From IMG/VR virus record IMGVR_UViG_3300017781_000179, positions 1-21,190 of that record: a stretch of 21,190 bases of DNA; one strand, written 5' to 3'. Every line of letters starts with the position of its first letter. The stretch's first letter is position 1. Source of the stretch: a virus. The notes under the pieces were generated by a model. That model was not told the origin of the DNA and did not search any database. It was given only the letters and a program-made list of their open reading frames with translations. Shown here piece after piece: positions 4,496 to 19,402 of this stretch. A program made the position numbers and the translations under genes.

Positions 4496-4641
4496 GATAC
4501 TTGTAATGCAACGTAAATTAACATACCAAGTATACTAAAATTAATTAACATATTAACATAGTGTGGGTTCGGTGTCATAATTTTCTTCCTTTCAATATTT
4601 AGAGTCATAAGATCTGTGTGTTCAAGTACTTTGTGCCACAT
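4492..4641 (-). CDS. 49-residue single-pass membrane protein
   Basis: This small gene starts at an ATG overlapping the upstream stop as TAATG, with AAAGGAA before it. It ends with a TGA that overlaps the desaturase GTG. It encodes 49 residues with a polar N-terminus and one hydrophobic segment near the end (MLINFSILGMLIYVALQV). A second in-frame ATG (22 codons in) also has an AGGAAG, so a 28-residue form is possible. Perfect coupling on both sides supports it as a real gene. Its position suggests a membrane partner of the desaturase, which is inference. Confidence 0.65.
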   Translation of the reverse strand: MWHKVLEHTDLMTLNIERKKIMTPNPHYVNMLINFSILGMLIYVALQVS

Positions 4642-4883
4642 TATAATTCCTTTCCGTAACCAAACATTTGATCAAGGCCGAAGGTTTCCATAAGGAGAAA
4701 ACTGAATACTAATAAAAGAATGCTCCAGACAATAAGCTTACCACTAAAGTTTGTCGCTGCCATCTTAATTGCAATTAACTCATTGCCTAAGAATCTAAGC
4801 GCTAACTCAAACTCGTTGTGTTCTTCTTTCTTTTGCTCTTCATCTTTTTCAGTCATGTATCCGTACTTCTTATCTTCGGCCAT
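4641..4883 (-). CDS. Small membrane protein with charged N-terminus
   Basis: This 80-residue protein has a highly charged N-terminal third (Lys/Glu-rich), a short amphipathic middle, and one transmembrane segment at about residues 50-66 (LIVWSILLLVFSFLLME), followed by a short polar tail. It lies 4 nt after the preceding gene and overlaps the next by 1 nt (TAATG). It is part of the operon that starts with the tmRNA. No family is recognised. A single-pass inner-membrane protein with a large cytoplasmic N-terminus is the most likely topology. Confidence 0.65.
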   Translation of the reverse strand: MAEDKKYGYMTEKDEEQKKEEHNEFELALRFLGNELIAIKMAATNFSGKLIVWSILLLVFSFLLMETFGLDQMFGYGKEL

Positions 4884-4887
4884 GTTT

Positions 4888-5121
4888 TTATTGTTTCTCG
4901 CCTACGTAAGCATAAAGCTTGTTTGCGGTTTCGATAAGATCAACTGGCTGATACATCATAGGCGAGTGTTCTTTTATCGCCTCTTCGATGTCTTGGCGTT
5001 TCTCTTGTGCCTGATCTATCATTCGATACATCAAGTCCTGTTCTAAACAGAACTGTGTGTCGGCCATTTCTTTGGCCATTCTTAAAGTTTCGAGACGAAT
5101 CTCATAAGCATTTTTAGACAT
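4888..5121 (-). CDS. Small helical hypothetical protein directly downstream of the tmRNA
   Basis: This 77-residue protein is mostly helical and charged, with heptad-like Leu/Met spacing in the first 50 residues (IRLETLRMAKEMADTQ, then LMYRMIDQAQEKRQ). There is no membrane segment. The ATG at 5121 has a near-perfect AGGAGG 5 nt upstream. This is the first protein-coding gene after the tmRNA in the same transcript, which is driven by the promoter at 5433-5461. The style is that of small conserved proteins of marine T4-like phages. The function is unknown; a regulatory protein made early is possible. Confidence 0.7.
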   Translation of the reverse strand: MSKNAYEIRLETLRMAKEMADTQFCLEQDLMYRMIDQAQEKRQDIEEAIKEHSPMMYQPVDLIETANKLYAYVGEKQ

Positions 5122-5185
5122 ATTGTCCTCCTGTGTGTGTTAGTGGTGAGATTCTGTTTCCACGCTCTCACCGGGCGCATAGGAA

Positions 5186-5230
5186 TTACGCAGCTTGCGC
5201 AAACTCCTGAGGTGCAAAATTATCGTTTGC
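5186..5230 (-). other. tmRNA tag-peptide reading frame
   Basis: The frame GCA AAC GAT AAT TTT GCA ... GCT GCG TAA encodes ANDNFAPQEFAQAA and stop. The ANDNFA start and the Ala-Ala end match alphaproteobacterial SsrA tags, where the C-terminal AA is read by ClpXP. An earlier in-frame GCG AAC (5248-5243) lies closer to the pseudoknot, so a longer tag is formally possible. The GCA at 5230 gives the canonical tag and is preferred. Confidence 0.88.
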
Positions 5231-5309
5231 ATTTATCGTTTTGTTCGCATTAACCGAGCTTACATCCGGATAACTCCAATTCTCTAATACATACCTGTCG
5301 ATCCTATTT

Positions 5310-5372
5310 CAGCCCCATCATGAATACAGCACTTATTTAACGACACCCGTGGCTGTATTCATGGTGGAGCTG
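5310..5372 (-). repeat. 21-position inverted repeat joining the two tmRNA pieces
   Basis: Arms at 5310-5330 and 5352-5372 pair across a 21-nt loop, with one G-U and one C-A mismatch. The helix contains the acceptor stem and continues without a break past the mature CCA end. The precursor is therefore one long hairpin that host processing enzymes must open to release the mature 3' CCA end (5362) and the 5' end of the coding piece (5316). Confidence 0.85.
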
Positions 5373-5432
5373 TCGGGTACCGCCCCCGAGTCCAGTATAA
5401 TTTTCGATCCTTTTCATCGTTATATAGTATAT

Positions 5433-5461
5433 ATTATACCACAGAAATAGCCATTTGTAAA
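5433..5461 (-). promoter_or_regulatory. Early sigma70-type promoter for the tmRNA operon
   Basis: On the minus strand there is TTTACA (5461-5456), a 17-nt spacer and TATAAT (5438-5433), preceded by an A-tract and CTG (AAAAAAACTG). The predicted start near 5426 is just upstream of the tmRNA acceptor piece. The same module occurs at 9819-9847 and 20219-20247, so it appears to be the phage early promoter. It abuts a plus-strand late promoter at 5471. Confidence 0.85.
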
Positions 5462-5500: not shown

Positions 5501-5980
5501 ATGCCAGTAGCAGAAATACTAGCGGGTATCGCATTGGTGAAATCAAGTGTTGACTTTATTAAGTCCAATATTGACACATGTAAAGATATTGGAGAAATAG
5601 GTGGTGCCATCGATGGTTTACTACGAGGTAAAGATGAAGTCAATAAGAAACAAGGTAAACGAGGTCTTGGTGTTAAAGAACAGTTTGATACATCACATAT
5701 CGCAAGAGAGACCATTGATGCAAAATTAGCTGCCGAGCAATTACAAGAAGTTGCTAATATGATTAATTTACGATTTGGTCCTAACACTTGGAAAGAGATA
5801 TTAGAAGAAAGAGCAAGACGAATTGCAGAACAAAAAGAATCAGTGAGGCTTGCAAAGATTGAAAAAGCAAAAGCAGATAAACAATTATGGATTGAGATTA
5901 AACAAGTTTTTACAGTTGCCGGTATTATATTTTTAGCACTTGGTTTAATTGTTGGTGCAGTATGGTACTCAAGACTTTAA
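5501..5980 (+). CDS. Tail-anchored coiled-coil protein of unknown function
   Basis: This encodes 159 residues. The N-terminus is Gly/Ala/Ile-rich and amphipathic (ILAGIALVKSSVDFIKSN, then IGEIGGAIDGLLRG). A long charged helical middle (about 70-130, with EERARRIAEQKE and KIEKAKADKQ) follows. The last 25 residues form a single hydrophobic segment (VAGIIFLALGLIVGAVWY) ending in SRL, giving a C-terminal membrane anchor. It is the first gene after the late promoter, with an AGAGGAG ribosome binding site, so it is probably made late. A virion, lysis or membrane-associated role would fit; a holin or spanin role is not supported by any motif. Confidence 0.75.
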   Translation: MPVAEILAGIALVKSSVDFIKSNIDTCKDIGEIGGAIDGLLRGKDEVNKKQGKRGLGVKEQFDTSHIARETIDAKLAAEQLQEVANMINLRFGPNTWKEILEERARRIAEQKESVRLAKIEKAKADKQLWIEIKQVFTVAGIIFLALGLIVGAVWYSRL

Positions 5981-18289: not shown

Positions 18290-18512
18290 CAGAATACTCC
18301 TTTATCGTCTTCGCTATCTCTTTAGCTTCTGTAAATCCATTACGAAGAGAATTTGACCTATGGCCATTTTTCAAAAACCAATTTATGCTATTTATATCAG
18401 ATCCATCCGGCATACTATATCCATTAGTGATTTCTTCAAAGTCAGATCTTAGTTTTATAATCTGTGTTAGTGATAAGTCAGTGTCCAAACATTTTACGAG
18501 TTCTATATTCAT
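18240..18512 (-). CDS. Hypothetical protein overlapping the EF-hand gene
   Basis: This encodes 90 residues from the ATG at 18512 (AAAGGACA upstream), a soluble, mixed-charge protein with no recognised motif. Its first 35 nt overlap the nuclease gene, and its last 50 nt overlap the EF-hand gene in another frame. The C-terminal 16 residues (CAKTTGTRKQVREF) are thus constrained by the EF-hand N-terminus. The long overlaps on both sides weaken the case slightly, but the interior 60 codons have no other coding explanation. Confidence 0.6.
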   Translation of the reverse strand: MNIELVKCLDTDLSLTQIIKLRSDFEEITNGYSMPDGSDINSINWFLKNGHRSNSLRNGFTEAKEIAKTIKEYSDGCAKTTGTRKQVREF

Positions 18513-19167
18513 CAATTGTGTCCTTTAATAATTTAGTATAGTTATCCCTGTGCTCAACAAACACCACAGGCTTTTCATGATCAACATCCATAATGATTAC
18601 TACATTTGGAACTGTCATTCCGGTTCGCTCTTCCCACATAATTGCATATGCTGCACCTTGTGCGAAGTAGTTGCTAATATTTTCTTTCTTCTTTATATAT
18701 CTTGATGTTTTAAAGTCAATTATTGATGGGACACCATTGAATTGAGCGATACAGTCACATCTACCAGCCACACCTAGGTGATCACTATATAGTGGAACCT
18801 CGAGGCCGAATATCGTTCCAACACTCTTATCAAGCACAGGCTGCAGATTTTGCAGGCTCTGTCTGATGTGTGGCAAAAATTCTGACGTATCTTCATTGTT
18901 TAAATACTTTTCTACTATACTATGGACTTTAGTTCCACGTCTTGATGCTTTTCCACCGACTATTTCTGCCTGTTCTTCACCAACTCTATTTCGCCAAGCA
19001 CGTATAGCTTCTTCAGTGAGTATACTTAGAACTGTTGTAATACTAGGATAAGACTTACCATTAGGAGTATCATAAGTTCTCCCTGTGTCTGTAGTTGTAG
19101 CATCCAAGTCTTCATAGCCGATATTAATTTTGTCATGACTAAATATTTTTCTTTTCCTTTTCTTCAT
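18478..19167 (-). CDS. PD-(D/E)XK-family nuclease
   Basis: This encodes 229 residues from the ATG at 19167. The motif chain fits phage exonucleases of the PD-(D/E)XK/Cas4-like superfamily: SITTVLSIL, RRGTKVHSIVEKYL, Glu123 in GLEVPL, Asp138 in VAGRCDCI, the D151-F-K153 pair in IIDFKTS and a Gln in YFAQGAAYA. These residues bind two metals for DNA cleavage. The basic N-terminus (KKRKRKIF) may contact DNA. It would act in recombination, repair or host DNA degradation in the cytoplasm. It overlaps the preceding exported-protein gene by 29 nt and the next by 35 nt. Confidence 0.85.
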   Translation of the reverse strand: MKKRKRKIFSHDKINIGYEDLDATTTDTGRTYDTPNGKSYPSITTVLSILTEEAIRAWRNRVGEEQAEIVGGKASRRGTKVHSIVEKYLNNEDTSEFLPHIRQSLQNLQPVLDKSVGTIFGLEVPLYSDHLGVAGRCDCIAQFNGVPSIIDFKTSRYIKKKENISNYFAQGAAYAIMWEERTGMTVPNVVIIMDVDHEKPVVFVEHRDNYTKLLKDTIDEYRTRKMFGH

Positions 19168-19402
19168 AATTATACTCAAATATACCTTTAACTTGATCAG
19201 TCGTTAAACAATATATTGCTTCAGGTGTGTGCTTAAAGTTATATGATGCACTCGCTGTTGTATATATTCTTTGATGCATTACAGATACGTACTGATGACA
19301 TTCTTTTATTGTATCAAATTGCGGTTGCTTAAATACGAAAAGAGGCCTATCAAGTGCTGCAGTATTTGCCATAATAAAAGATACTATTATAAAAAATTTC
19401 AT
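19139..19402 (-). CDS. Small exported two-Cys protein (family A)
   Basis: This 87-residue protein has a clear signal peptide (KFFIIVSFIMANTAA, cleavage near AA-LD), then FDTIKECHQYVSVMHQRI and a second Cys in PEAIYCLTTDQ, with a charged tail. The 'F-x-[ST/D]-I/M-x-[EK]-C' helix start resembles 6705-6923 and 7116-7334. It has a strong GGAGAAG ribosome binding site. Unlike the other two it lies in an early-type unit. Periplasmic, one disulfide, unknown role. Confidence 0.68.
   Translation of the reverse strand: MKFFIIVSFIMANTAALDRPLFVFKQPQFDTIKECHQYVSVMHQRIYTTASASYNFKHTPEAIYCLTTDQVKGIFEYNYEEKEKKNI

Follow-up and report, generated by a model that had tools for sequence, protein, structure and literature searches.

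Maturation of tmRNA involves RNase P and tRNA 3' processing, and its function involves charging with alanine and the protein SmpB. Stable RNA genes are usually taken as non-coding, and annotation masks their interior. Homing-endonuclease genes sit in the loops of group I introns, tmRNA introns included. Among phages, a two-piece tmRNA with an early promoter upstream was described for the Methylophilales phage Melnitz in 2022, and the same paper also counts 53 two-piece tmRNAs among 18,146 phage genomes, nearly all of them aquatic, proposes early expression and tagging of host proteins for phage tmRNA, and asserts riboswitch control of the Melnitz tmRNA (PMC9004378). A tmRNA database of 97,179 sequences, whose authors built the Rfam model RF04321, holds 79 unique phage sequences, and reports one tRNA gene (called a unique feature) and one repeat element within the intervening segment (IVS) of permuted tmRNAs, and no protein gene (PMC11915505).

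The stretch of viral DNA analyzed here, referred to as the window (21,190 nucleotides of IMG/VR record IMGVR_UViG_3300017781_000179), has a circularly permuted, two-piece tmRNA gene on the minus strand at about 5461-5142, promoter included, in the order promoter, acceptor piece, spacer and coding piece (Table 1). A preliminary description had proposed a permuted tmRNA with the acceptor piece preceding the coding piece, leaving the strand unstated, and had suggested an Rfam comparison. This was borne out on the minus strand by full-length matches to alpha_tmRNA (RF01849; 128.4 bits, E 3.5e-35) and tmRNA_permuted (RF04321; 116.7 bits), for which the gathering scores are 50 and 47 bits, and by ARAGORN, which calls a permuted tmRNA and reads the anticipated tag, ANDNFAPQEFAQAA*. 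The proposed acceptor end (CAGCTCC-ACCA, with CCA at 5362) and coding-piece start (GGGGCTGAAATAGG at 5316) are exact, the predicted pairing of the two pieces is a 7-bp acceptor stem with G3-U70 and an encoded CCA, and the stop-codon hairpin is likewise supported. Covariance score, piece order, acceptor stem and an Ala-ending tag frame thus all place the locus in the permuted tmRNA class, and it is another case of the already published phage permuted tmRNA.

Table 1. Coordinates of the tmRNA gene, its parts and neighboring features in the window
Feature	Position	Strand	Description
Sigma70-type promoter	5433..5461	-	-35 TTTACA 5461-5456, 17-nt spacer ending TGTGG, -10 TATAAT 5438-5433
Acceptor (3' tRNA-like) piece	5362..5423	-	T arm GGACTCGGGGGCGGTACCCGA, acceptor strand CAGCTCC, discriminator A, CCA end at 5362; 5' end approximate
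Intervening segment (IVS), 45 nt	5317..5361	-	Long hairpin prolonging acceptor stem (ATGAATACAGC...GCTGTATTCAT)
Coding (5') piece	5142..5316	-	GGGGCTGAAATAGGATCGAC...; putative pseudoknot region, tag frame, 3' hairpin
Tag reading frame	5186..5230	-	ANDNFAPQEFAQAA, stop TAA; ARAGORN call
3' hairpin	5145..5172	-	GGTGAGA...TCTCACC, conserved loop TGGAAACAGAA; compensatory changes at three pairs
77-aa protein gene	4888..5121	-	Directly 3' of tmRNA, SD AGGAGGA; conserved neighbor
80-aa protein gene	4641..4883	-	Standalone in window; homolog inside tmRNA IVS of L312 and L559
159-aa protein gene	5501..5980	+	Divergent neighbor; conserved synteny; query for relatives
Glutamine riboswitch RF01739	7096-7048	-	55.3 bits
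33-aa ORF	7021-6920	-	MTYRPYSWKRFCQARDRARVHRILSYRLQLKAA; after riboswitch; 59-93% identity in relatives

Gene order, the G3-U70 acceptor stem, the T arm, tag type and encoded CCA are shared with the permuted tmRNAs of alphaproteobacteria (RF01849, RF04321), from which the window differs in that its tmRNA is phage-borne, no smpB was found, the lineage tag ends AQAA and relatives carry protein genes in the IVS. The suggestion that the tmRNA points to an alphaproteobacterial host is unsafe, because the alpha-type tmRNA of Melnitz occurs in a phage of OM43, which is not an alphaproteobacterium; host hints in the window itself are weak, consisting only of small matches to two pelagiphages. As a search for an SmpB gene in the window record and 21 related records, which are fragments, gave none, the phage would rely on host SmpB. 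Two further suggestions of the preliminary description, that the RNA replaces host tmRNA or selects a protease, would go beyond the present evidence. The window tag also occurs in about 20 viral loci, and tags of relatives end AQAA or ALAA: AQAA, with Gln third-last, is seen in the window lineage and ALAA or AIAA in sister lineages, and the third-last residue is usually Leu in other phage tags seen. The AQAA ending could alter protease recognition of the tag. Two degenerate tag patterns compared with genome contigs gave zero matches, in a search run without a positive control that supports no claim of AQAA absence from hosts, and a literature search for tag strings returned nothing.

The strong sigma70 promoter that had been placed upstream is upheld, with 11/12 matches for TTTACA-17-TATAAT and an extended -10 (TGn); it is the best of nine candidates in 2 kb, where 8.1 promoter-like sites are expected by chance. 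In 14 loci of the window lineage its -10 box is identical and separated by 63-64 nt from the acceptor-strand end, and the bases between the -35 and -10 boxes are variable. Covariation was evaluated in an alignment of 12 phage sequences at 19 pairs of the T stem, acceptor stem and 3' hairpin. Across these helices 97.8% of cells are paired, falling to 36-51% when the registers are slid; both sides have changed, in compensatory fashion, at 7 of the 19 pairs (U-A/A-U/C-G among the covarying T-stem pairs), and the covariation score was reached by none of 500 shuffles. The strength of the model matches, the promoter conservation and the compensatory changes together indicate that the tmRNA is under selection and is not a relic. 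Integration at ssrA is common among phages and islands, which often take pieces of that gene along (PMC9004378), and the window tmRNA gene might on that account be a decayed copy of host origin, a transduced fragment or prophage remnant functionless in the phage; with the RNA full-length, its tag frame intact, compensatory changes in all three helices tested and promoter and synteny kept in many contigs, such an origin is exceedingly improbable.

Searches with the two flanking genes, 5121-4888 and 5501-5980, yielded relatives that are syntenic with the window, in an order that runs from a cell wall hydrolase through several small genes, the glutamine riboswitch with its conserved 33-aa ORF, and four opposite-strand genes to the tmRNA, the 77-aa gene and the 80-aa gene. 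The riboswitch and 33-aa ORF resemble a downstream-peptide arrangement. Control of the window tmRNA by the riboswitch is not favored: the riboswitch is 1.6 kb upstream, the DNA between them contains four genes on the opposite strand, and a separate promoter serves the tmRNA. In Melnitz the riboswitch is just downstream of the tmRNA, and in L132 and L134 the tmRNA immediately follows the riboswitch ORF. The published statement on riboswitch control is not transferable to the window. A Gp23 capsid match is present in only 2 of 22 contigs, so a T4-like nature is not established for most of them, and terminase is found on the cargo-bearing contigs G007 and G013. Elsewhere in the window, the product of 15407-14331 (-) is probably a RuBisCO-like protein, judging from large-subunit matches (PF00016, 85.5 bits; PF02788, 26.9 bits), and Pfam matches point to a short fatty-acid desaturase-like gene (4495-3980, -), a QueC-like gene (1612-2172, +) and a PD-(D/E)XK nuclease gene (18478-19179, -).

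The IVS is the part of the gene that sets many relatives apart. That of the window has a longest ORF of 9 codons, holds no nested protein gene, and folds as a hairpin of -14.3 kcal/mol (-33.9 kcal/mol with its arms). Measured from CCA to GGGG, the IVS is 7-49 nt in most close relatives and 106-232 nt, with ORFs, in others, and in many marine phages it is 100-240 nt with a small protein gene. Targeted scans found IVS of 90-120 nt in at least 120 contig stretches, 140-170 nt in 109 and 210-240 nt in 19. L127, L134 and L312 carry a protein gene between CCA and GGGG; in L127, where promoter, leader and synteny are as in the window, the 160-nt IVS encodes cargo F8 (ATG AGT AAA AAT AAA TAT CAC CAC TGG...), with an SD-like GAAAGG and, as its stop, a TGA right before GGGG.

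From 342 distinct tmRNA loci extracted, 215 have an IVS of 80 nt or more. A sense ORF spans roughly 60% or more of the segment in 155 of these, and an antisense ORF in 22. Because shuffled IVS also yield such an ORF in 57 of the 215, about a quarter, ORF presence alone is weak evidence, and the long IVS could be structured non-coding RNA with ORFs arising by chance; roseophage IVS of about 100 nt do look structural, and one IVS holds a tRNA-Arg. The sense over antisense excess runs against this, as do the substitutions: in 14 nested-ORF families with diverged members pN/pS is 0.05-0.55, where pairs are not independent and some families have only two or three members (F6 is at 0.55), and in the well-sampled families third codon positions hold most of the differences (310/198/636 at positions 1/2/3 in F1, 263/134/443 in F3). 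Cargo also has homologs outside tmRNA. The standalone window gene at 4641-4883 shares 65% identity with F7, the cargo of L312 and L559; F5 is Pfam DUF6356 (46 bits, cut-off 24); and a protein-only search with F1 found 80 loci, with both tmRNA flanks recognized in 43, one in 15 and neither in 22, the last being standalone genes, many of which start in overlap with the stop of the preceding gene. These findings leave the chance-ORF reading very unlikely as a general account, although to about 110 distinct long IVS no cargo has been assigned, and these may have a purely structural role.

The terminal sequence of some standalone F1 genes, TTGATGGGGGC, is identical to that found where IVS and coding piece meet, which suggests possible capture by microhomology. 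Searches of F1 and F3 cargo against cultured phages by tblastn gave no match and F6 a weak one; ten cargo proteins had no clear match in PHROGs, and no endonuclease family was recognized among the cargo in PHROGs or Pfam. Several variants were also seen. In the L375:4680 region ARAGORN places a tRNA-Arg(tct) gene inside a phage permuted tmRNA IVS. The F3 IVS of L237, L300 and L305 have two seemingly overlapping ORFs (VEQILLGG... then MKNPLVR...), an arrangement that suggests potentially coupled translation, and L305 has a further ORF in 380 nt. In L573-L582 and L600 several nested F1 ORFs run into the mature RNA (..MGAKQDRQ..) without the usual stop at GAAATAG, and these tmRNAs therefore deviate at a normally conserved motif.

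Cargo is exchanged while the tmRNA around it is retained. Mature tmRNAs that are 99-100% identical enclose a short hairpin IVS (26-32 nt) in one contig of a pair and a long, gene-bearing one (109-140 nt) in the other (L117/L352, L163/L175, L101/L467, L102/L182), near-identical mature tmRNAs carry unrelated cargo or none, and the tmRNA tree requires at least 45 switches between cargo and short IVS, a figure inflated by recombination and low resolution. Every cargo-bearing locus tested scored well above an Rfam cut-off (the set also included L128 and L139 as controls without cargo), and all 88 cargo-bearing loci retain the full acceptor stem, a conservation that is partly by construction as the search pattern fixed pairs 1-4, and largely did not fix pairs 5-7. 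The IVS ends themselves pair: in long segments the mean helix is 10.2 bp, as compared to 5.1 bp with arms swapped between loci, and among F1 loci the 5' arm tracks the coding 3' arm (GAGTCT/AGACTC, TAAGTCTT/AAGACTTA, GAGCACAG/CTGTGCTC). With its ends paired and their arms covarying, the IVS places the cargo in a loop whose stem stacks on the acceptor stem, and this framing stem is maintained by covariation.

The same arrangement can be recognized in Melnitz (MZ577097), where four near-identical isolates have a 142-nt IVS with an SD TTGGAG and a candidate ORF (MFKWLSKTRLVVITRDYFRERNRKADAKIPKYLSGTRSVYD..., peptide MFKWLSKTRLVVITRDYF...) lying within the annotated ssrA feature, where the record shows no CDS. 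By eye the ORF is similar to family F4 (ending KYLGK/YLSG). Melnitz and the window are alike in having an alpha-type two-piece tmRNA in a marine phage, with an early promoter reported upstream and a glutamine riboswitch nearby; they differ in the IVS (142 nt with the unannotated ORF versus 45 nt with none) and in riboswitch position. The portion of the Melnitz paper available contains no discussion that we found of a nested gene in its tmRNA (PMC9004378). Nor was any report of protein genes in a tmRNA IVS found in the literature, in a search that covered mainly literature outside subscription journals and in which absence is no proof; the tmRNA gene as a holder for small protein genes is apparently new here. 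Homing-endonuclease genes in group I introns are similar in that a removable RNA segment is a safe harbor for a protein gene, whereas the tmRNA cargo is small (about 25-75 aa) and varied, and its segment would be removed by tRNA processing rather than splicing.

Taken together, comparative sequence analysis establishes the tmRNA, the slot, nested coding genes, their exchange between near-identical tmRNAs and a maintained stem; processing, translation of the cargo and any joint function we infer. The window tmRNA would be transcribed from its host-type promoter, and host tRNA-processing enzymes would cut the precursor after CCA (5362) and before GGGG (5316). From knowledge of the family, the two pieces would pair via the acceptor stem, be charged with alanine and, with host SmpB, rescue stalled ribosomes and add ANDNFAPQEFAQAA. 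The excised segment (5361-5317) would be a neutral slot framed by the stem that prolongs the acceptor stem, tolerant of insertions because it is removed anyway, and in relatives the precursor or the released segment would serve as message for the cargo, so that cargo and tmRNA would be produced together. We hold it highly likely that this is a working marine-phage permuted tmRNA whose excised IVS is a neutral slot and, in many relatives, a cargo site for small protein genes, the cargo claim resting on those relatives and the window IVS being gene-free.

A regulatory step might be added to this explanation. Of the 88 cargo ORFs, 42 read 13 nt into the mature tmRNA and stop there, in GGGG.YGAAATAG, so that cleavage would leave a non-stop message, the tmRNA's own substrate, and synthesis of the nested protein would be confined to times of slow processing or slow rescue; arfA provides an established precedent for non-stop logic (PMC10107115). 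The other half of the cargo ORFs stop elsewhere, mostly inside the IVS (19 of 88 at the TGA of a conserved TGAT before GGGG), standalone F1 copies have a stop codon of their own, and stops in the mature RNA may simply be those that the conserved frame offers; such coupling seems unlikely. The broader proposal, that the permuted tmRNA genes of phages are composites of RNA and protein gene, their IVS serving generally as an exchangeable site for small-protein cargo and the tmRNA controlling the level of any nested protein whose stop is lost on processing, is doubtful and is offered tentatively.

In summary, the neutral-slot explanation makes the removable spacer of the tmRNA a simple genome-packing device, a gene holder found in many marine phage contigs, with hidden families of small proteins whose genes share a transcript with the ribosome-rescue RNA that the phage itself encodes. 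Melnitz, being cultured, makes the nested-gene idea testable at once. Why phages carry tmRNA thereby also becomes testable and, if cargo and rescue are linked, the cargo would tell the purpose of the RNA.
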